Shown here piece by piece: positions 46,708-57,701 of a stretch of 64,000 nt of DNA; the stretch's first letter is position 1, and the number at the start of each line of letters is the position of its first letter. Origin of the DNA: Pararhizobium gei (GTDB lineage: Bacteria > Pseudomonadota > Alphaproteobacteria > Rhizobiales > Rhizobiaceae). The notes beneath the pieces were generated by a model. The model was not told where the DNA came from, did no database searches, and saw only the letters and a list, made by a program, of their open reading frames with translations. A program made the position numbers and the translations under genes. Location of the stretch: contig NZ_CP119409.1 in the NCBI RefSeq assembly GCF_029223885.1, positions 1,390,001-1,454,000 on the forward strand, written 5' to 3'.

Positions 46708-46727
46708 GCTGAATACGGAGAATGCTC

Positions 46728-46994
46728 ATGATCCATTCAGCCGCACAATTCGGCGCATTAATTCGCGAGCACAGAAAAAAGCAGGGATGGACACAGACCG
46801 AGCTGGCGGAACGGTGTGGGACCGGTGAACGCTTCATCGTCGATCTGGAGAATGGCAAGCCTAGCTGCCAACTCCAGAAATCCCTCATCGCGGCCCGGAC
46901 GGTTGGGATTGATCTCGGTGACCTGAAAACCGCAGCGCAGCCTGTTATTCCGGAAGCGGATGACGCTCTCGGGCATCTGCCCCGTTTCTCCTGA
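46728..46994 (+). CDS. hipB: HipB-type antitoxin, XRE-family
   Basis: An 88-residue helix-turn-helix protein from the ATG at 46728, whose GGAG lies 7 bases upstream. FGALIREHRKKQGWTQTELAERCGTGERFIVDLENGKPSCQLQKSLIAARTVGIDL is written here only in outline: it is the HTH_3 fold at residues 8-65. HipB represses its operon and neutralises HipA, whose gene begins 11 bases after its stop. Confidence 0.9.
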   Translation: MIHSAAQFGALIREHRKKQGWTQTELAERCGTGERFIVDLENGKPSCQLQKSLIAARTVGIDLGDLKTAAQPVIPEADDALGHLPRFS

Positions 46995-47005
46995 TCAGGC
47001 TCGTC

Positions 47006-48250
47006 ATGACCACCATCTTCTACGAGAGCTTGCCTGTTGCCAATCTCCTCGACCGCGATGGAATTTCGCTAGCCTATGAACCGAGCTGGGAGCAACGCAC
47101 GTCAGCCTTCCCGATCTCGCTAACCATGCCTTTGCGATCCGGCAGCTATGGCGCCGATCGGGTCATGCCGTGGCTTGCCAATCTTCTTCCGGAAACGCAT
47201 CTCTCCGAGATCGGCCAGCGCTTGAAAATTTCACCGCAGGATATTGTCGGTCTGCTGACGCGCCTTGGCCGCGACACCGCCGGAGCGTTTTCGATCGGGG
47301 AACCGCGCCGAGACGGAAATAATTTCCGCGTCGTGCCAGACGAGGCGGCGCTCGAGCGCATTCTGAACGAACTGCCTGAACGGCCCTTTCTGGTTGGCGA
47401 ACAGGGCGTGTCGATGTCGCTCGCGGGCGTTCAAGACAAGCTACCCGTTTACATCGGTGACGACGGCAAGATCGCTATTCCCGTCGATGGCACACCATCC
47501 ACCCATATCCTGAAACCCGACATCAAGCGTCTGGCCGGCAGTGTCCAGAATGAAGCTTTCTGCATGACCCTCGCCAAGCTCTGCGGGCTGGAGACGGCCG
47601 AGGTGACGACCGGACGAGCGGGCAAGCGAGACTACCTGCTGGTCAAACGCTACGATCGCATCGCCGACGGGGAGGGGACGATCCGCCGCATCCATCAGGA
47701 AGATTTCTGCCAGCTGCTGGGCCTGTTCCCGTCGGAGAAATATGAGCGGACCGGACTTGGCCAAAGAGGCGGCGCAACGCTCACGCAGATGTTTGAGGCG
47801 CTGGCGCGTTACGTGTCTCCCGCCGAACGACTGAGGCTGCTCGATGCCGTCATTTTCAACATCCTGATCTGCAACTCCGACTCGCATGCCAAGAACTACT
47901 CGGTTCTCGTCGGTGCAGCCGGAACAGCCAAACTCGCGCCGCTCTATGACCTGATGTGTGCGGCGGTCTACAAGCAGGTTGACCAGTCGCTTCCGCAGCA
48001 GATCGGGGCGAAGCGGAACGCCAACGAACTATATGGGAAGGATTGGCGGCAATTCGCATCGGCCGTTGGGCTGAGCCCCGCTCTCATGACAAGACGAGTC
48101 CAGGAGCTTTCAGGCAGGGTCGTCTCAAACCTCGATCAGGGGTTGGAGCAGGCAAGGCGTTATCCGTCTTTCCACCAAGAGTTCGGGGCGAGCCTCCTGC
48201 TCGCTATACGCAAGAGGTGCCAGCGGATGGAAAGACAGGTCGGCGGCTAG
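47006..48250 (+). CDS. hipA: HipA-type serine/threonine kinase toxin
   Basis: The 414-residue protein follows the HipA layout: N-terminal subdomain (LTMPLRSGSYGADRVMPWLANLLPE), MSLAGVQDKLPVYIGDDG, HILKPDIKRLAGSVQNEAFCM, and the kinase centre NILICNSDSHAKNYSVL with catalytic Asp and Asn, then LAPLYDLMCAAVY. Characterised HipA kinases phosphorylate glutamyl-tRNA synthetase and induce dormancy. All key residues are intact, so this module looks functional in an otherwise decayed island. Confidence 0.95.
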   Translation: MTTIFYESLPVANLLDRDGISLAYEPSWEQRTSAFPISLTMPLRSGSYGADRVMPWLANLLPETHLSEIGQRLKISPQDIVGLLTRLGRDTAGAFSIGEPRRDGNNFRVVPDEAALERILNELPERPFLVGEQGVSMSLAGVQDKLPVYIGDDGKIAIPVDGTPSTHILKPDIKRLAGSVQNEAFCMTLAKLCGLETAEVTTGRAGKRDYLLVKRYDRIADGEGTIRRIHQEDFCQLLGLFPSEKYERTGLGQRGGATLTQMFEALARYVSPAERLRLLDAVIFNILICNSDSHAKNYSVLVGAAGTAKLAPLYDLMCAAVYKQVDQSLPQQIGAKRNANELYGKDWRQFASAVGLSPALMTRRVQELSGRVVSNLDQGLEQARRYPSFHQEFGASLLLAIRKRCQRMERQVGG

Positions 48251-48481: not shown

Positions 48482-48808
48482 ATGCCCGGGCTGAATAAGG
48501 TCCTTGCTTATACAAATCATCCTGACGTGGAAAAGGTACTCGCGGCCATCGAAACGGGCGAGCAACTCACCGTCGCACAAGTCAAGGCAATAATAGGTGC
48601 GACGCCGGCGAAGAAGGCGACTTCCTCCAACGACGTTCTGAACGCCGGTGGGACGGCAGGTCTCCGCAAGGTCGCGGAGATGAAGTACGCTCAGGATGTT
48701 GCGCGGTTTGATGCGCTCATGTCCAGAATCCTAAAGGAGGTGGAGACGGCTCTTGAGCCGTTGGCGCGGGGCCGGGCTGTCATCAAGGTGATCTTCAGGG
48801 AGCCGTAG
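48482..48808 (+). CDS. Hypothetical protein
   Basis: A possible 108-residue protein (MPGLNKVLAYTNHPDVEKVL) with a helical composition and a basic middle (TPAKKATSSNDVLNAGGTAGL). No family is recognised. Its 3' end overlaps the convergent ORF at 48691-49170 by 118 bases, so probably only one of the two is real in full. Confidence 0.4.
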   Translation: MPGLNKVLAYTNHPDVEKVLAAIETGEQLTVAQVKAIIGATPAKKATSSNDVLNAGGTAGLRKVAEMKYAQDVARFDALMSRILKEVETALEPLARGRAVIKVIFREP

Positions 48809-49170
48809 TTTACCGTTGCCGCCATGCGCATGACCTCGTCAATGCTATCGCGGCCCCGCTGAAGGAAGGGCAAGGTGCCGGCTTGAATCTGCGGCTTGCT
48901 CATTTGCCAAAGGAGACCGCTTGGGGGCGGGTCCAAGCATTGCTCTGGCGGATGGGAAGCGTCGAAAGCTAGCCAAACCGTCCGGACTTCGTTCCGTGGC
49001 TTCAGCACGAAGTCGTACCGCTCCTTCGCTTCGCGGCCCATGGTGAGGCGCTCGACAGCGACGATGATGCAGAGCTCGAGGTCGCCGTAGAACCAGCCAC
49101 CGATGAAACCCCGTACGCTGTAGGCCTCATGGCTATCGAGCAGCGTGCGGCATAACAGCTGACGGTCCAT
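48691..49170 (-). CDS. Hypothetical protein
   Basis: A possible 159-residue protein (MDRQLLCRTLLDSHEAYSVR). The N-terminal 90 residues look protein-like (GGWFYGDLELCIIVAVERL, FVLKPRNEVRTVWLAFDASH); the C-terminal part lies antisense to the neighbouring ORF and may be read-through after truncation. No family is recognised. Confidence 0.4.
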   Translation of the reverse strand: MDRQLLCRTLLDSHEAYSVRGFIGGWFYGDLELCIIVAVERLTMGREAKERYDFVLKPRNEVRTVWLAFDASHPPEQCLDPPPSGLLWQMSKPQIQAGTLPFLQRGRDSIDEVMRMAATVNYGSLKITLMTARPRANGSRAVSTSFRILDMSASNRATS

Positions 49171-49652
49171 ATCGTACTCAAAGGTCCCGCCACCGTGCCG
49201 GACTTTTTACGTTTGGGCCTCCGGTCCGACGCGTCTCTCGTTAACCATGCCGGAGTTCTCAGTTCTGGATGCGTTCTTGTCGGCTTGCCGGACCTCAATC
49301 TCCGGGCTATGTCGACAGGGTCAGCAGAAACGCCTGGTTCCGCAGACACTTAGCGGCCCCCGGTGGTGGTGGAACACCCAACGGAGGCCTGACCGGTAAC
49401 CTTCTTCTGAAAGGCCACTGGCTATGTCGACCCTTAACTGCTTCGCTTCCGTATCGGAAGCATCTTCTCCCGTCTCTCCTGTTGAAACTCATCCGTTCCC
49501 GGTCGTTCCGCTGCGCGTCGGTCGCACGTCGTAACCGGACGTCGGATCGCCGCGGCTGGCATCGAATGCGGAAATTGTTTCCGCATGCGCGGACATTTGT
49601 CCGCGGATTTGCCGCGTCTGGCGATCCTGTTTCCCATCAACAGGAGAATTTC
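49171..49652. other. Intergenic region with operator-like dyads
   Basis: These 482 bases show no gene with recognisable features. Near the right end are two adjacent dyads (see 49568-49604) and a good AGGAG site for the next gene. CTATGTCGAC occurs twice (near 49304 and 49422). Confidence 0.5.
49568..49604 (+). promoter_or_regulatory. Tandem dyad operator upstream of the PD-(D/E)XK/AAA/M41 genes
   Basis: GCGGAAA-TTG-TTTCCGC (49568-49584) and GCGGACA-TT-TGTCCGC (49589-49604) are two perfect 7-bp-arm palindromes of the same GCGGANA/TNTCCGC type, centred about 20.5 bases apart, i.e. two helical turns. A weaker third (GCGG-N5-CCGC, about 49603-49615) follows. They end 48 bases before the ATG at 49653. 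Confidence 0.65.
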
Positions 49653-50402
49653 ATGACCACTATGAAACACAATACGACGCCTGCTTACTCAACCGTCGCA
49701 GATGTCGAGGCCCTTCAGTCCCGTTTGGATGCGCTGATCGACGAGATTGTGGGACCGACACTTTCCGCTGACCTGCTTCGTGGTGCGCGTGTCGCCGGCA
49801 TGACGGAGATTGCCACCACCCTTCGCGCCGTGCCGGTCGCAGAAGGACGGCTACTGGAACGCGGCATCGCCCTGATCGCTACCCTGAACGGCGACCTCGT
49901 GGTTCTAACCGGCAACCTGCGCCTGCCTGTCACCAAGGCTGCAACTGAGCTGGTCGAGATGAACGACCCGAAACACTACCGTTCGCTGAGCCTTGATGCG
50001 GACAGCGGCGGTCGCAAGACGTACACGCCGGACCTCTTGATCCTGAACCGCAGGACCGAGGTTGCGCATCTGGTCGACGTGAAGCGAAGCCTCGGCTCCT
50101 ACGAAATCTCACGGATCGCCGAGCTGAAAAACCGTATGCTGGCGGCGGCGCTCGTCGTTCCGGACCTGCTCTATAAAGAGTATCTTCGGCTTCAGACGAA
50201 GGAGGTTTGGGTCGTCATCCTGAACGCCGAGAACCAGCGCAGTGATCTCGAGGGCGGTGTGTGGCCGCTGTCTGACGGCCGACATCGTCTTCGAATGTGG
50301 CGGACTGGACGATACCCTGCTCGCCGAACTGCTGCATCTCACCCTCGGGATCGCTCCGACGCGGTCGCTGAAACGCATGGAAGCCTTGGCACTCGACCTT
50401 GA
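49653..50402 (+). CDS. PD-(D/E)XK nuclease-like protein, 3' end out of frame
   Basis: The ATG at 49653 follows AGGAGAATTTC. About the first 207 residues look genuine: a helical N-terminus, then YTPDLLILNRRTEVAHLVDVKRSL with Pro126-Asp127 and Asp142-x-Lys144, the spacing of a PD-(D/E)XK nuclease core. After residue 207 the frame appears shifted: deleting one G in GACGGCCGAC near 50275 would continue smoothly into DADIVFECGGLDDTLL, which is read in the next frame by the AAA ORF. Either a frameshift fused/separated the two or the genes overlap. The nuclease assignment rests on the motif alone. Confidence 0.6.
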   Translation: MTTMKHNTTPAYSTVADVEALQSRLDALIDEIVGPTLSADLLRGARVAGMTEIATTLRAVPVAEGRLLERGIALIATLNGDLVVLTGNLRLPVTKAATELVEMNDPKHYRSLSLDADSGGRKTYTPDLLILNRRTEVAHLVDVKRSLGSYEISRIAELKNRMLAAALVVPDLLYKEYLRLQTKEVWVVILNAENQRSDLEGGVWPLSDGRHRLRMWRTGRYPARRTAASHPRDRSDAVAETHGSLGTRP

Positions 50403-51477
50403 GGGCCTTTCCATCGACGATCTGACGTTGTCGATCCGGCCGTCGCACGATCTGGAGACAATTCTGACCACGCTTGCCGCGCTCGGTGACCGGGCGCGAA
50501 ACCGCGACGAGGATGATAGAGACGAGGACAGCGTTGGTCGTCACGGTCGCAGCGGCAGGGAGAGCAAGCTGAAAAGCAGGAATGCTGCCTTCAAAGATGC
50601 GGGCAAAGCGTCCTCCTCTCTCGAGGGCGTGGACATCATTCGACCACTTGAGCCGCCTGCTGAAAAGATGCGCACCAGTACAGATGTCGATGGAATGGCT
50701 ATGAGCGGACCGTCGGTCGATAGCAACCTGCACCAATTGCGGATCGAAACATTGTCCGGCTACGGTGAAGCCCGGCAATGGGCACTTGATCTGAAGGACG
50801 ATCTCCAGGTCTGGCGCAAGGGCGGTCTTGGCTGGAGCGAGATGAATACAAAGCTCCTGCTCTCGGGGCCACCGGGAACCGGCAAGACAACCTATGCCCG
50901 AGCGCTGTGCAACACGCTGCAAGTGCCGCTGCTCGTCACCTCGGTTGCGGCATGGCTGGAGCCTGGATATCTCGGCGATGTGTTGAAGCGGATGACGCAG
51001 GCTTTTGAAGCAGCGCGCGCGCATGCGCCGTCGATTCTCTTCATCGACGAGATCGACAATATCGGCAGCCGCAGCGGAGGTCGGCGCGAGCAACACGACG
51101 ACTATTGGCGCTCCCTCATCAACCGGTTGCTCGAACTGCTCGATGGTGCCTGAAAGACCGACGGCGTGATCGTCGTGGCGGCGACAAATTTGCCGGATCG
51201 GATCGATCCCGCCCTGCTTCGGTCGGGCCGGCTGGAAAAGCATGTCGCGATCCCGATGCCTGATACCGAGACGCTGAGCGGCATCCTCGCCCATCATCTT
51301 GCCGCCGATCTCGCTAGTGTTCTGTCGTCAGCGCCGCGCCGAAAATTCATTCGTCACCTGCGTCCACCGACGGCGAAGGACCAAGTTCCGCAGCAGCACC
51401 GGAAAACAGTTGGCGCCCGAAATCCGACCACGGAAAGGGCGCGCCACAATGACCGATATCCAGCACCAACCACATGA
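50242..51477 (+). pseudogene. FtsH-like AAA+ ATPase, interrupted by in-frame TGA
   Basis: The frame from GTG 50242 encodes an acidic N-terminal region and an AAA+ core: Walker A LLLSGPPGTGKTTYARAL, Walker B ILFIDEIDNIGSRSGG, then a TGA at 51151-51153 (LLDGA-stop-KTDGVIVVAATN). After the stop the same frame resumes with the second region of homology and arginine finger (LPDRIDPALLRSGRLEKHV) to a stop at 51477, 29 bases inside the M41 ORF. A CGA to TGA change would explain the interruption. As written, translation ends before the arginine finger, so the ATPase should be inactive. Confidence 0.8.
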
Positions 51478-52177
51478 TGTCCTCCGACCGCTGGCACTGC
51501 TGGCGACAGGTCGAACAGGCGCCGACATCGAACGTGTTGTCCGCGAGGTCCGGCGTAAGGTGCGGCGCGAACAGCGCGTCCTGACCTGGGGTGATCTTGA
51601 GCAGGCTCTGCTGGCCGGCCAGATGCGCATGTCCGATGACCTGCGTTGGCGCACAGCGGTCCACGAGGCGGGGCATGCCATGGCATTCACGCTCACGGGC
51701 ATCGCCGAAGTCGCCACGGCGACGATCGGCATCGACGGTATCGGCCAGGTCGCGAGCCGCCAGAACAGTCATCTGCAGCAGACCGAGGCCTGGCTCCAGC
51801 ACTTTATCCTATGCATGCTCGCCGGTCGCACCGCCGAGCTCCTGGTGTTCGGGGAACCAGTCGCGGGCGCTGGCGGTGGCGACGACAGCGATCTGGCGCG
51901 GTCCACGAACCATGCCTTGGCGGCCGAGACACGCCTTGGCTTCTCCAAGCATCAGCCTCTCGTTTACCACAGCGAGAGCGGGAGCGTCAGCGAGTTGAAC
52001 CTGGACCGGCATCTCACAGAGCGGGTAAACGCGCGGCTGCTCTCAGCAGAGCATGGAGCGCGCGACATGCTGGAGGCGCGGCGCGACGATCTGCTGGCCA
52101 TCGCCACCCGTCTCAACGAGGTCAGGGTCATGACCGGCGATGATGTTCGGCAGATGCTGGCCATCCATGACGGGTGA
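51449..52177 (+). CDS. M41 (FtsH-type) zinc peptidase with AAA lid remnant
   Basis: From the ATG at 51449 (MTDIQHQPHDVLRPLALLAT) the protein is 242 residues. GRTGADIERVVREVRRKVRR corresponds to the AAA lid/sensor-2 helix of FtsH, followed by the M41 zinc motif VHEAGHAMAFTLTG and the third-ligand region GGGDDSDLARSTNHALA. There is no membrane segment. It overlaps the end of the AAA frame by 29 bases, so protease and ATPase core are on separate coupled ORFs, a split FtsH-like arrangement. The peptidase itself is intact. Confidence 0.78.
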   Translation: MTDIQHQPHDVLRPLALLATGRTGADIERVVREVRRKVRREQRVLTWGDLEQALLAGQMRMSDDLRWRTAVHEAGHAMAFTLTGIAEVATATIGIDGIGQVASRQNSHLQQTEAWLQHFILCMLAGRTAELLVFGEPVAGAGGGDDSDLARSTNHALAAETRLGFSKHQPLVYHSESGSVSELNLDRHLTERVNARLLSAEHGARDMLEARRDDLLAIATRLNEVRVMTGDDVRQMLAIHDG

Positions 52178-52642
52178 GGGGCGGCGGGAGTCCGATCGGC
52201 GTGATCCAGAAAATCGATTCCTGTTTGCGCCCGTGCGATTCCGATCTCTCGCAAATCGATTCCGACTACAAAATTATCGATTCCGAGTTCTAAAACTGCG
52301 GTGCTTAAAGGCGGCTAGGTGCTGGACGGTCAAAGCAACGTGCGTCGTTTCACGTCTTATTAGATCGACATGACCTGTCGGCACCTCATGCCGACGTCAT
52401 CCGAATTGTCACGATGCGTATTAAGGTGCCTGCACATCATGACGCATCATCTCAATTTACCCTGCCGCGATTCCGATCTCCACATCCGCGTTGCCAAGCT
52501 CCGGATTTGCGATTCTGCGGCAAACGCCGTTTGCGGGCAACACACTACTGGACAGCAGCTTCGGGATTATTTTTGGCAACCGGTGTTTGTCGCTTGCATA
52601 GCCGACGGTCAGGCTAAGGCTCCACCAACAGGGAGTTATGTT
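52178..52642. other. Non-coding region with 21-bp phased repeats
   Basis: No convincing long gene is seen between the M41 ORF and the ATG at 52643. The left part holds four exactly phased repeats (52213-52296); a second, weaker set is at 52466-52528, with CGATTCC at 52468, CGTTGCC at 52489 and CGATTCT at 52510, again 21 bases apart. A good SD (AGGGAG, about 52631) leads to the next gene. Confidence 0.55.
52213..52296. repeat. Four 21-bp tandem repeats with CGATTCC core
   Basis: CGATTCC occurs at 52215, 52236, 52257 and 52278, exactly 21 bases apart, usually as ATCGATTCCGA. In one frame from GTG 52201 each unit gives a heptapeptide containing (I/C)DS, ending at TAA 52291-52293 (30 residues). 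It could be an iteron-like protein-binding array or a tiny heptad-repeat peptide gene. Confidence 0.75.
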
Positions 52643-52960
52643 ATGCCCAGAGAAACCAAGCAACAGAGGAATGCCAAGCAAATGATCCGCCAGCAGAGAG
52701 TGCGCGAAAAAGCCAGGCTGCGCCGTCGACCAGACAGAGATGATCTGGCGAGGGTGCTGCTCTGGAGAATGATTGAGGTTGCCCGCAAAAAAGATGACTC
52801 TTACCAAGCGCTCGGTAAAGTTCGGGACGTCATCGTCGAACTGCTTGAACGCCAAGGGTTCAATGTCTTTGAAAGCGAAGATGTCTTCCATGAGTTGGCC
52901 GATAGCTATGCGGATGGACTGTTTCCGTTTCGTCCAAAGCGCCATCTGGAAGCAAACTAG
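52643..52960 (+). CDS. Hypothetical basic protein
   Basis: An SD (AGGGAG) precedes the ATG at 52643. The 105-residue product has a very basic N-terminus (MPRETKQQRNAKQMIRQQRV, then REKARLRRRPDRDD) and an acidic, helical C-terminus (VRDVIVELLERQGFNVFESEDVFHELADSY). It could be a small nucleic-acid-binding or antitoxin-like protein; no family is recognised. Confidence 0.6.
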   Translation: MPRETKQQRNAKQMIRQQRVREKARLRRRPDRDDLARVLLWRMIEVARKKDDSYQALGKVRDVIVELLERQGFNVFESEDVFHELADSYADGLFPFRPKRHLEAN

Positions 52961-53327
52961 CTGGCCCTCAACTAAACCCCTTCTGCAAACGCCGTACGGT
53001 ACTAATGGTCGTCTTCCCCCCATTACTTCGCATCACGGCGTTTGCAAAAGAATCGAGAAACCCCGGGTTCTAACATTGGCCAGCTCTCGTATTGCGGTAG
53101 CGAATCTATTCTTACGGGGCACCGATTTGACTACAGGGACACTACCGGATGGACACGCCCTCCTCAACCGATTGAATATCTGGGCGACGTGCATCCTGCC
53201 CGCAGTCAAGCAGGCGGGGATCGGATATGTTGAAGCGACGATTTCTCCCTTTCGGGCAGAGGACAACGATTATGCAATGCGCCCCGGTCGCCAACAGGGC
53301 ATAGAGACCTGCAGTTGCTTTCGTTTC
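52961..53327. other. Intergenic, no gene supported
   Basis: In these 367 bases short open frames exist on both strands (for example minus 53033-53266) but none has an SD, family motif or protein-like composition that I can support. It probably contains decayed sequence beyond the PLD-like gene. Confidence 0.4.
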
Positions 53328-54251
53328 TCAAACTCGGCGAACACTACCGTCGGACCGGACTTCTATAACCGGCGACACAAGCTCAAAATCAGTCGCATCC
53401 TTAGCAAAAGCATTCAGCCTTGTCTGCGACAGCGCTGTGCTCATCAGATGCATGTCTGTTGTTTGATGCCCGCCTTCGGCCGAAAATCCTGCGTCAATTC
53501 CGACACCGCCTCGCTCGGTCAGCAGGTATCTTGCGTGGAAGTCGGCCCCACCGTTCTTCTGCCTCCAGCAAAAAATTGTAACGGCTAAACCTGCTGGTAT
53601 CACCCCATCGAAAAGCGCGACCGCATCTCTCTCAAGTTCCAAAGTGGTAGGTTTGCTATTGTGGTAACGGAAGTGGATTTCGCAGGCTGCGCCCGGGTTA
53701 TCCGCCTTAACGCATGCAAGACAAGCTCTGAGCGTACTTTTGTAGCGCGCGTTGTAGGGGTCGAAAAATGGATCGACGAAAAGGATACGGGCACTGGCGC
53801 GAAGAAACCAATTCAAAGCGGCGGCAATGGGCTCAGCCTCTCGTCACACAGGACTGTCTTGTTTAACCGCAATGAGGACGTCCTGTTCATCGATTTCATC
53901 GACAGTAGCCACTTGAGGATGAGCCGTCGGGTTGTTGTCAGCAATGATAGCATGGAAGGGCACTGCCACGTGTTGGGCGATAGCATTTTGTAACCAGCTG
54001 CCAAGTGCAGGATCATAGGGTCTACCCGAGCGGACAACTTTCGATTGCTTTGCTTCTTTCAACGCGATCTCAAGGCGCGCCCGCTCAATAGGCTTCATTT
54101 GTGCAGCCGAGTTATACACCTCCCGTTCCCACTTCTTCGGGAATCGAGAAATCAGCCGCCCACGATCAAAACCGAATTTTTCGATCAGGTAACGGAAGTT
54201 TTGCCAACTTGAGCCAATTGCCTGAGGCTCCACTGCATATTCGAAAAGCAT
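53328..54251 (-). pseudogene. PLD-like protein, interrupted by in-frame TGA
   Basis: The minus frame starts at ATG 54251 (MLFEYAVEPQAIGSSWQNFR), meets TGA at 53846-53844, and continues in the same frame (REAEPIAAALNWFLRASARI) to 53328, about 307 residues in all. The second half has ARILFVDPFFDPYN and FHARYLLTERGGVGIDAGFS, which resembles a degenerate phospholipase D/HKD half-site; this is a tentative fold call. The start overlaps the ATPase stop (TGATG), so the two formed a coupled pair. CGA to TGA would account for the break. Confidence 0.6.
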
Positions 54252-55431
54252 CAGAAGAGTTCCTCCGCGCGCTCTTCAAAGAAGCCCCTCGGCCAGCGGT
54301 CGATGAAATCTCCCTCGTGGTCAACGCGAAGTGGCCGGAAACGGACGCCCTCATCGGTGCTCTCGACATAGATCACAGCAAGATCATCCGGCGAGAGGCC
54401 TATCATGCCGGGCGGTACTTCATTCTCGCTTGCTTCGCGGATGCGACGCAGGAGTCGCAGCATGATATGCTCGCTATGAGTTTCCACGAGCAGCGTCTTG
54501 CCAGGGCCAAAAATGCTGTCGCTTTTCTGAACTGCCTGGATGAACAGATCGCCCAAGCCGACCTGAATGGCCGGGTGAACATGCAATTCCGGCTGCTCGA
54601 TCGCAAGAATGCCCTGTTGGTTTCGAAGGCAACCGACGATCACCGGGATCATTTGCGATATGCCGACACCGACATCGCTCGGTGCGACGATGATGCCCTT
54701 TTCGAAATCGCGCAGGGCGATTTCGGAACGTCCGCTCAGCGTCGCGTATAGGTCTTGCAACTCTGCAAGGTCGTCTTCGGAAAGTCTGGCCTCAAATAGC
54801 TGGTGGAACCGACTGGGAACCGGAACTTCTTTGAACTGGAACTTCTCAAGCCGATACGCAGTCTTCAGCCGCTCTTCGCCTCCAAGCCACGCATTGACCT
54901 CTTCAATCAGCTTGCCGGAAGGGTCAGTATAGAGCAAGTCCCAAGCTGCAAGGCCTTGCGCCAGCGCGATTCATCTGGTGAGAGGCGCGGGCGATACTGC
55001 CGGCTCGGAATTTCACGTAGCGGACCGATATAAGTCATTGCGCTGAGATAGTCGCGGACGATGCGGATCGGCCCAAGCACAAGTTCGTCCAGCAAAGCGC
55101 TCAAGCCAGCCCTGCGGCGACGCTCAAGTTCGTACTCATTGACCGCAGCGCGCTCCCGTTCCTCAGTCAGTCGAAGGATCGCTGCGCCGGCCATATCGCG
55201 CTGACGAATAAGGCTCTGATCAATCTCAACCAGATCAAGGCCGAGCGGGCGATCCAAGTTCGGCAGCGCGCCGAGGACCGTCTCCACGGCGATCCGGAAC
55301 TCGACAGTCTCGTTTTCGGTCGCGTCTGCGGAGGTTTCACGAGAGAGTTCCCATATCTCATTGCCGATTGGCGTCGAGAATGGATCGTTTAAGTAGCCTT
55401 CTTCTACATCCTCATCCAGTTCATCGAACAC
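54251..55431 (-). pseudogene. DUF3696-type AAA ATPase, truncated and frameshifted
   Basis: Two minus frames make one protein: 55431-54907 (acidic and helical, ending near SRWRKALQL) and 54937-54251, joined smoothly if one base is added in AAGGCCTTGCAG (RKGLAAWDLLYTDPSGK). The second part has the ABC-like ATPase end, GILAIEQPELHVHPAIQ (Walker B) and LLVETHSEHIMLRLLRRI, and the DUF3696 C-terminus WPRGFFEERAEELF. No Walker A is found: in frame there is a TGA shortly upstream of 55431, so the N-terminal third is missing. Similar ATPases occur in anti-phage systems. Confidence 0.72.
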
Positions 55432-55607
55432 TTCCTCAACGAACTCAGCGTCGTCCTCCGGGATGGTTTGTCAATGAGTTTGTGGTGCTGCCAATTTGCG
55501 GGCTGAGTATTGCCTATGGTAATGGGCGCTATATGATTGCCCTCATGGCGTGCAGCGGCCATATACACACCGTCCATACGCGTTGATAGCGGCAACCGTT
55601 CGACAGA

Positions 55608-56522
55608 GTGTGCAGGATGGCATTTATCTCACCGGCCCGGCTCGGGGTCGCCTTTCTTGGACTGGCCGGATTGACCTGTTTTTCCGCGCTGCATCCGTCC
55701 TACGCTCCGCTCTATAAATCCCTGCAACAAAACTATCGTGCCAGCCAAGGGCAAGCCGATTGGCAAATCGGGGAGCGCGAAGAAGCCAAGCGGCAGGACG
55801 CCGAACGTCTAGCACGCGAACAGGAAGCGGAGCGTCAAAAGGCGTCGGTTCTTGACGCCGGGCGCGCGGAGAAGAACAGACAAAGAGTGCGTGCCAACGA
55901 ACTGGCAGGGTTGATCGTGACCACCAGCGAGAGGATCAACGCGCCGTTTCTGGAGTCGAAACCGGAGGTGCAAAAGCAGCAAATCGCACTCAGCGGTTTG
56001 TTCACCCAAGCGCCGGGCGCAACCGTCGTTGGTGACAGTGGCTGGACCATGGCCGATGTCATGGCAAAAAAGCCTTGTTCCGATATCCAGAATTCCTTGA
56101 AAACGGTGTTTCAGACAGACGGTTATATCCGCTATCTGCATTTCCTGTGCCTATACGGGTACTGGCAGGATCAGGGGAGCGACGATGAAAAGCTGTTCTC
56201 CTATATGTGGATCGAAGCAAACCCCACAGGTGCTGAGATTCGCCGTCGTTACCATGTGACCCTGAGCTACGTTCTCTATCACTTGACAGAAATGTGGGAG
56301 CGCCGGTTGCTCGACCGCAATGGAGCGTACTACGGGCGCTCACCGGGGAAACTCGACATCGCCAACTACGACCAGCTTTTCCGCACCCGGTTGCCGGGCA
56401 AAATGGCAAAATCGCTCGTGGGATGGCTTGAAAAACCGCAGATCGAGTTCATCCGCGACAAGTTATACCAACCGTCACTGATTAGAACCCTTGCGCCCAT
56501 TTGCGTCGGCCGATTGACATGA
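55608..56522 (+). CDS. Membrane/coiled-coil protein, 3' end replaced by IS630
   Basis: The protein begins with a hydrophobic segment (LGVAFLGLAGLTCFSALHPS), then a charged coiled coil (about residues 50-95, EAKRQDAERLAREQEAERQK), then a soluble domain (TDGYIRYLHFLCLYGYWQDQ, RRYHVTLSYVLYHLTEMWER). Start is either GTG 55608 or ATG 55617. The native frame runs to about 56465; the last 19 codons to 56522 are read from the IS. Joining 56465 to 57630 restores a frame HEYKVIRIY and a TAA at 57657-57659. Function unknown. Confidence 0.6.
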   Translation: MCRMAFISPARLGVAFLGLAGLTCFSALHPSYAPLYKSLQQNYRASQGQADWQIGEREEAKRQDAERLAREQEAERQKASVLDAGRAEKNRQRVRANELAGLIVTTSERINAPFLESKPEVQKQQIALSGLFTQAPGATVVGDSGWTMADVMAKKPCSDIQNSLKTVFQTDGYIRYLHFLCLYGYWQDQGSDDEKLFSYMWIEANPTGAEIRRRYHVTLSYVLYHLTEMWERRLLDRNGAYYGRSPGKLDIANYDQLFRTRLPGKMAKSLVGWLEKPQIEFIRDKLYQPSLIRTLAPICVGRLT

Positions 56523-57627
56523 TCTTCCATGGTCGTTGCTGGAGGGTTCTCCAAGCGTAGCAGCAGTGGTCGACGATATCCTCGTAGGATTTGAAGACTC
56601 GGTTTGAGAGCCAGTTGTCCCTCATGAACTGCCAGATGTTTTCGACCGGGTTCAACTCGGGCGATTTGGGCGGCAGTGGCAGGATGGTGATGTTTTCTGG
56701 AACGACGAGATTGTTGGACATGTGCCATCCGGCCTGATCCATGATGAGGACGGCGTGTGCATGAACGGCGACGTTGCGGGATATCTCGATCAGGTGCTGG
56801 TTCATGGCATGGGTGTCGCACCACGGCATGACGAGAGCGGCGGCCTTGCCGTGCTTGGGACAGATGGCACCGAAGATATAGGCCGATCGGGTTCGCTGGT
56901 CGTGCGGCGCGGACGGCCTTGAGCCCCGCTTGGCCCAACGACGCGTGATCTTGTTCTTCTGGCCTATCCGGGCTTCGTCCTGGAACCAGATTTCGATTAC
57001 TTTGCCCTTGGCGGGACCTGCGGCGATTTCTGCCACAGCGGCGGGGAAGTTTTTTTAAATGCCTCGGCCGCCTCGGCATCCTGCGCATGATGTCTTGGGC
57101 GAGCCGAGAGCTTGCGATAGCCCATGGCACGCACTTCGCGGCCCAGGGTCTCCTCGCTCACCGAGATGCGGAACTCTTCCCAAATCCATTGCGCCAGATC
57201 ACACAGACGCCAGCGAACGACTCCATCCAGATACGGGGTCGGTCCGCGCTCTATGGCTTGCGCCAAAGCCGTTCGCTGTTCATCGTTCAGGAGAGAAGGT
57301 TTGCCCGGGGCCTTGCCGTTGATAAGGCCGGCGGGACCGCGTTCATTGAAGCGCACCACCCAGTCGCGCACGATCTGAACCGTCACACTGCCAAGCCGGG
57401 CGGCATCGGCGCGTGAGCCGCCATCATAGATCGATGCAAGTGCCAGAAGCCGCCGTGCCTGATCGGCATCGCGTGTCTGCCGAGCCAGAAGCCGCAACCT
57501 GGCTCCGTCGAAGTCCGATCGCAAAGAAATCGCTGAACCCATCACAAACCTCCAGTTTGCATCACAGATTCAGATTCGTTGGCTGCTGGGAATCCCCTTC
57601 AGAGTCATGCTCACTGACGGTTGGTAT
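56466..57627 (-). mobile_element. IS630-family insertion sequence
   Basis: About 1162 bp with terminal inverted repeats ATACCAACCGTCACTGA (56465-56481) and its complement at 57611-57627, 16 of 17 matching. A TA flanks each side (56464-56465 and 57628-57629), as expected for IS630 target duplication. It carries one transposase in two frames. It inserted into the 3' end of the gene at 55608. Confidence 0.88.
56482..57545 (-). CDS. IS630-family transposase, expressed by -1 frameshift
   Basis: The first frame (57545 to 56997) has an N-terminal HTH (SRADAARLGSVTVQIVRDWV) and ends shortly after a run of seven A (57056-57050). The second frame (to 56482) has the DDE residues: Asp in IWFQDEARIGQ, Asp in LIMDQAGWHM and Glu in SPELNPVENIWQF. 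Slipping back one base on AAAAAAAC gives FKKNFPAAVAEI and a product of about 354 residues, the normal length. Such programmed shifts are usual in this family, so it is probably functional. Confidence 0.87.
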
Positions 57628-57701
57628 TACACGAATATAAGGTGATCAGGATTTATTAACCTTCTCAATGGTTTGAAAAAGAGCGGATTTCTTAGCTGGG
57701 T

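Follow-up and report, generated by a model that had tools for sequence, protein, structure and literature searches.

A 64,000-nucleotide stretch of the Pararhizobium gei genome (contig NZ_CP119409.1, positions 1,390,001 to 1,454,000; hereafter the window) holds a decayed copy of a real, conserved gene cassette, found mostly in Rhizobiaceae, that encodes a PD-(D/E)XK nuclease-like protein, an AAA+ ATPase and a separate M41 peptidase chain carrying part of the AAA+ lid. Gene order, the split between ATPase and peptidase, motif conservation, low ratios of nonsynonymous to synonymous substitution (dN/dS) and a palindromic operator are shared by many members, and the split cassette is almost certainly conserved as such. 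The two chains very probably make up one protease, and the nuclease-like protein is probably an active nuclease. As the best explanation overall, we lean slightly toward a soluble two-chain FtsH-like protease that gates a PD-(D/E)XK nuclease in mobile-element conflict. Taken by itself, the functional part of this proposal, a protease-gated nuclease in mobile-element conflict, would command a little under half of our confidence.

The cassette was noticed through a first-pass annotation of the DNA, which described three consecutive open reading frames (ORFs). The motifs it named, PD126-127 and DVK142-144, are present in the nuclease-like ORF, and the AAA+ core lies on one ORF and the lid with the M41 peptidase on another, overlapping one (Table 1), with a weak lid match in the window (14.3 bits). 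The three ORFs represent a damaged copy and not a working layout. The nuclease ORF is joined out of frame at 50272 and consists beyond this point of out-of-frame ATPase sequence (intact relatives have about 293-303 aa), and the ATPase is stopped by an in-frame TGA. The ATPase ORF of a second copy stops at the same place, and the frame is open there in a third copy and in the related protein P0236, which has serine at this position.

The genome (G000; 3 contigs, 4.75 Mb) contains three copies of the cassette: that of the window, copy 2 (L010) and copy 3 (L011). By BLAST, window positions 50272-57630 are 100% identical over 7,359 bp to copy 2 (G000:C1, about 3750518-3757876), whereas 49186-50272 is only 85% identical to the nuclease region of copy 2; about 1.6 kb of copy 2, comprising the nuclease end, a small ORF and the ATPase N-terminal part, is missing at the window junction. 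In copy 3 (G000:C1:430000-443000), all cassette genes are open. A DUF3102-like gene of 401 aa comes first, followed by the nuclease P0053 (293 aa), a small ORF of 106 aa, the ATPase P0123 (651 aa, or 672 aa if an earlier start is used), the peptidase chain (251 aa), which begins in a GTGA overlap with the ATPase, and a further small ORF (108 aa). Since these genes are intact and split, the split exists without damage, and the damage in the window did not cause it. The DUF3102-like gene, broken in the window, is open in copy 3 and in copy 2 (377 aa), with a weak Pfam DUF3102 match in these open copies (19.8 and 18.2 bits against a cut-off of 24.4). Near the far end of the 7,359-bp duplicate lies a pair of transposase ORFs (Pfam DDE_3 and HTH_33), and PADLOC weakly matches the small downstream protein of copy 3 (L011 3753-4079) to a type I specificity subunit, at 18.7 bits.

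The distribution of the cassette was surveyed in 199 genomes of the family. A peptidase-chain profile (A2) matched at 1e-35 in 54 of them, in part through fused soluble proteins, and each of the 53 rows with E <= 1e-49 (close M41 loci) was examined together with its neighbourhood. These comprise 42 split loci from 30 genomes (including the window and copy 2, whose ATPase is broken), 7 fused loci and 4 without an adjoining ATPase core, two of them at contig ends and one with only a neighbour's nuclease, some 7 kb off. The association with the upstream gene held up, as the nuclease precedes the protease in 34 of the 42 split and in all 7 fused loci. Among the eight split loci without it, L055 is at a contig end, the upstream gene of L091 weakly matches a wider nuclease profile (22 bits; 1.3e-7), and L087 and L088 have a second AAA protein in the nuclease place. 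Starting from the other side, the nuclease profile (A1) gave 53 rows in only 35 genomes, which marks the cassette as accessory; it is multi-copy in some. Downstream of these rows lie 34 split proteases, 11 fused ATPase-peptidases, one ATPase only and, once, nothing, the other rows being five within 3.5 kb of a contig end and one fragment that was not fetched; partnership and order are kept at 45 of the 47 testable nuclease loci. In the named genome_contigs set, 25 of the 28 loci have the order nuclease, ATPase, peptidase (with the peptidase frame broken in L025 and L032), two (L013 and L027) are cut off by contig edges, and L039 keeps the order in broken frames. Some loci of the named and unnamed sets coincide (L021/L053, L036/L069 and L027/L116). 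The same three-gene order with the same split, which the first-pass annotation had raised, is present intact in many genomes.

Beyond the family, the nuclease profile found no match at 1e-8 in 384 other genomes of the class, where few candidates were scored per genome (<=6 in the rows shown). The range is not strictly one family, because one named locus (L026) belongs to a Devosia metagenome bin. A viral origin of the cassette was rejected, since nuclease relatives were not found in viral_contigs or phages; the peptidase chain had no phage match and two distant relatives in viral_contigs. A limited literature search met no account of the cassette, and its range is too narrow to call the cassette unpublished. 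As side observations, the second-AAA-domain proteins that precede the split protease in L087 (9100-10635) and L088 (4526-6076) measure 512-517 aa, and one genome (G167) has three fused nuclease-associated copies (L092, L095, L096) together with a lone peptidase ORF.

The junction between ATPase and peptidase was compared in 65 distinct split loci. A 4-nt start-stop overlap (frame +2) occurs in 30 of them and an 8-nt overlap (frame +1) in 22; a DUF6634 gene stands between the halves in seven (L059, L060, L062, L068, L075, L078 and L081; Pfam PF20339 for L078), and the remaining six (the window, copy 2, L021, L025, L026 and L030) have other arrangements. Given overlaps in two frames and an intervening gene, the halves are two chains and not the product of a single frameshift or readthrough event. 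Of 120 listed ATPase homologues, P0177 alone has M41 as well, and the way its two parts are joined looks like slippage at the overlap. Furthermore, dN/dS was below 1 for every chain in all 18 pairs tested, some of which share a member or have dS values above 1. In the 16 split pairs, the nuclease had values of 0.03-0.36 (15 pairs), the N-terminal region of the ATPase 0.14-0.33, the core 0.05-0.14 and the peptidase chain 0.07-0.21; in one of the two fused pairs (L085/L093), the N-terminal region reached 0.55. In a tree of 90 rows of core plus lid-peptidase, from which L008, L010, L025 and L032 had been dropped before building, all 61 split rows and 7 fused rows fall into one group (support 89/69), and the other 22 rows (21 and ordinary FtsH) are all fused. 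Within this group, fused L083, L085 and L093 join split L086 at support 100/99, and the fused forms have, by eye, a few to some tens of extra residues at the cut site compared with most soluble fused proteins outside it. As fused rows are nested among split rows, the state changed more than once, and re-fusion or several splits are possible histories.

FtsH-type proteases are normally single membrane-anchored chains. The cassette shares with FtsH, Yme1 and AFG3L2 the AAA core with Walker A, Walker B and arginine fingers, the GAD lid and the HEXXH peptidase with a distal Asp, but it consists of two polypeptides cut in the lid, shows no membrane anchor, and has its own N-terminal region of about 400 residues and a nuclease partner. 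In intact copy 3, the ATPase chain aligns to positions 198-344 of the FtsH model TIGR01241 and the peptidase chain to 358-597, with scores of 109 and 57.8 bits, far under the curated cut-off of 600. Walker A, Walker B and the arginines of the second region of homology are near-invariant among homologues, as are the catalytic residues and the lid GAD motif; HEXXH is present, and Pfam PF01434 matches at 55.1 bits against a cut-off of 29.9. The GAD motif lies on the peptidase chain because the cut falls inside the AAA+ lid, and the FtsH profile matches the lid more clearly in copy 3 than in the window. A structure model of the ATPase chain comprises the core and one lid helix (590-611), followed by a low-confidence tail with a helix at 633-646. 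In agreement with the first-pass annotation, no membrane anchor was seen: hydropathy over 19 residues peaks ahead of the core at 1.71 in copy 3 versus 2.54 in the ordinary FtsH of the same genome, by a simple hydropathy scan and not a topology predictor. Because neither the single-chain build nor the anchor was found, the cassette is not classed as FtsH.

The fused soluble FtsH-like proteins of Rhizobiaceae, one of which is encoded in the same genome (G000:C1:2406002), have the same AAA-M41 architecture, and most lack the strong N-terminal anchor of FtsH; they differ from the cassette in being a single chain, mostly of 650-800 aa. A DUF6634 gene is a neighbour in ten of these loci, and the nuclease is upstream in 12 (in L103 only weakly) of 29 distinct fused rows, which include ordinary FtsH. 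Some of the fused genes, one of them in the P. gei genome, are preceded by a gene that encodes about 200 aa, contains a PDF(L/F)V stretch and has no Pfam match; it may represent a degenerate nuclease. The fused gene of L126 is also followed by a DUF6634 gene (positions of these neighbours: L126 9943-10542 and 7587-7916; L123 5835-6455).

The first-pass assignment of a nuclease is borne out at the level of the motif. The protein carries the PD ... (D/E)xK pattern of PD-(D/E)XK nucleases, which is nearly invariant in homologues (P 64/65, D 65/65, D 66/66, K 66/66). A PDB profile search against solved structures gave five matches up to E 10, the best at 0.32 and none of them a nuclease, and the nuclease fold is favoured but unproven by fold comparison. 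PADLOC 2.0.0, the one defence catalogue searched, does not hold the cassette: neither the nuclease nor the peptidase chain has a matching model at 0.1, and the ATPase is recognised by its core only.

The tandem operator reported upstream of the nuclease is real and consists of two palindromes (Table 1). Across loci, 59 palindromes were found in 54 stretches upstream of the nuclease, a few stretches repeating one place, versus 8.8 in shuffles. A family operator, CGGAAATNNTTTCCG, occurs with <=1 mismatch 48-150 bp (mostly 67-84) before the nuclease profile start in 33 of 75 rows, or 30 of 72 when the repeats L106, L107 and L116 are set aside, and in shuffles 0.0 times. The exact operator 17-mer is found in 26 of the 199 genomes, and 17 of these belong to the 35 that have the nuclease (Fisher p 3.4e-9); the operator pattern read backwards, as a control, matched in none of the genomes listed. 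Nine genomes have the operator without a nuclease match, and one of these, G189, has the split protease. In the P. gei genome, a search for the 19-bp form that allowed <=2 mismatches yielded 14 strand matches at 8 places, six of them matching on both strands: three precede nuclease copies, one lies about 205 bp upstream of the DUF3102-like gene of copy 2, one over an internal ATG near the start of an integrase ORF, and one between two ORFs. In another genome (G116), the operator stands 86 bp before an ORF 40% identical to this integrase. The P. gei integrase (L147 5231-7150), 26-29 kb from copy 3, matches a PHROG integrase at 4e-15 and may mark the edge of an island; for this label, Pfam gave no more than a sub-threshold match to DUF6538, and the PDB search was uninformative. 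Against an operator regulon, many of the remaining sites are followed by no clear gene.

Mobile context was also seen among plasmids, of which 8 of 11 nuclease-bearing records were opened. Four of the eight have RepABC within about 8 kb of the nuclease, and three of these within 1.3 kb, among them L138, where the ATPase gene is followed by an insertion sequence. RepABC is equally near in L034 and L066. The four plasmids share neighbours and may therefore be one lineage. In addition, hipBA adjoins the cassette in the window, copy 3, L012, L015, L029, L032 and L052.

In the mechanism that we propose, the nuclease-like protein would act with a soluble AAA+ chain, made of its own N-terminal region, the core and the first lid helix, and with a second chain that bears the rest of the lid and the M41 zinc peptidase. 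The two chains would be translated together, as the short start-stop overlaps in 52 of the 65 split loci suggest; the lid half on the peptidase chain would complete the ATPase subunit and its nucleotide site, and the pairs might form a cytosolic FtsH-like ring protease. One step further, this protease could set nuclease activity by degrading either the nuclease or an inhibitor, a putative repressor of the operator could make the cassette respond to the state of its island or plasmid, and the nuclease would act upon entry of foreign DNA or disturbance of the element. The most complete version, a novel type of conflict system in which the nuclease effector is gated by a cytosolic AAA+ protease with its ATPase site split over two proteins and which a dedicated operator wires to the integrase and replication state of islands and plasmids, is tentative and rather unlikely to hold in full. 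If the mechanism is true, ATP use, and with it control of the nuclease, would hinge on docking of the lid half that the peptidase chain carries. The cassette would also offer a two-part protease that could be switched by adding its second component, and possibly a new type of conflict system of plasmids, islands or phages. As a conserved, apparently cytosolic FtsH-type form cut in the AAA+ lid and linked both to a nuclease and to the control of mobile elements, it would test how far an AAA+ subunit can be dismantled and yet function.

The nearest known analogy is IetAS (PADLOC IetA; NCBIfam anti-phage ATPase IteA), in which an AAA+ ATPase is likewise paired with a protease and which in Agrobacterium reportedly serves plasmid stability and phage defence. 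The match to the IetA model is confined to the ATPase core (72 bits, 1e-20). IetAS uses a subtilisin-like serine protease and includes no nuclease; the cassette has an M41 partner, part of the lid on the protease chain, a nuclease and an operator, and it is not filed as IetAS because the protease class differs. McrBC has no protease, and the PDB profile search gave no match between it and the cassette.

This analogy underlies the strongest alternative, a plasmid or island stability module (addiction or incompatibility) of the IetAS kind rather than anti-phage defence, which we regard as a credible minority possibility. The repABC neighbours in six loci, hipBA beside several copies, the operator at integrase genes in two genomes and the IetA match of the core all speak for it, but RepABC is found in a minority of the loci examined, and the serine protease and missing nuclease of IetAS do not fit. 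The suggestion of a defence or conflict module in the first-pass annotation stands in part: accessory distribution, multiple copies and a frequent operator of its own agree with it. As to defence proper, PADLOC has no model for either the nuclease or the peptidase chain, and a conflict role of plasmid or island fits equally well. Ordinary regulatory proteolysis, with the nuclease as bystander or dead adaptor, is improbable; M41 proteases often degrade regulators, but the nuclease motif and the gene order are both kept. Programmed frameshifting or readthrough that joins the halves into one chain is very unlikely and was rejected: the 4- or 8-nt overlaps at 52 of 65 junctions would allow it, but their frame varies by locus, a DUF6634 gene intervenes in seven, and 4-nt start-stop overlaps are typical of coupled translation. 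That the split is an artefact, with the overlapping ORFs derived from a single-chain FtsH-like gene by decay or frameshift, has next to no likelihood for the family: the nonsense codon in the window and copy 2, the broken frames in L025, L032, L039 and L050 and the existence of fused relatives (7 of the 53 close loci, which the first-pass annotation had regarded as telling against its own proposal and which do so in part) are outweighed by the recurrence of the split in 42 of these loci, low dN/dS in both chains, the intervening gene, the overlap frames and the near absence of M41 from the 120 listed ATPase homologues, and decay is accepted only as extra damage in the window copy.

Table 1. 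Positions of cassette parts and adjoining features in the window.
Feature	Position	Strand	Basis or remark
hipB-hipA pair	46722-48250		Directly upstream of the window cassette
DUF3102-like gene, broken, three fragments	48482..49155	+	phmmer with L011 and L010 proteins
Palindromic operator ATGCGGAAATTGTTTCCGCAT	49566..49586	.	Palindrome search upstream of nuclease
Second palindrome CGCGGACATTTGTCCGCG	49588..49605	.	Shared with copy 2; not reported for the remaining 14 of the 16 upstream stretches listed
PD-(D/E)XK nuclease-like ORF, 3' truncated	49653..50402	+	Family homology to 50272 (~residue 206)
Catalytic-type motif PD126-127 ... D142-V-K144	50028..50084	+	PD at nt 50028, DVK at 50076
Junction of nuclease and mid-ATPase	50272..50273	.	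Left ~85% identical to copy 2, right 100%
AAA+ ATPase gene remnant, N-terminal part lost	50273..51477	+	In-frame TGA inside
Walker A	50866
Walker B	51037
In-frame TGA	51151-51153		Between Walker B and sensor 1/arginine-finger region
Arginine-finger motif	51211
Later lid helices and M41 peptidase chain, open	51449..52177	+	Lid placed with the FtsH profile
Lid GAD motif	51509
HEAGH	51662
Small downstream ORF (small2), conserved, 105 aa	52643..52960	+	No Pfam family at 0.01

Further downstream, inside the duplicated stretch, reverse-strand ORFs in several frames surround an AAA_21/AAA_15/DUF3696 ATPase (53328-55431); this apparently broken gene set is a possible remnant of another conflict system.
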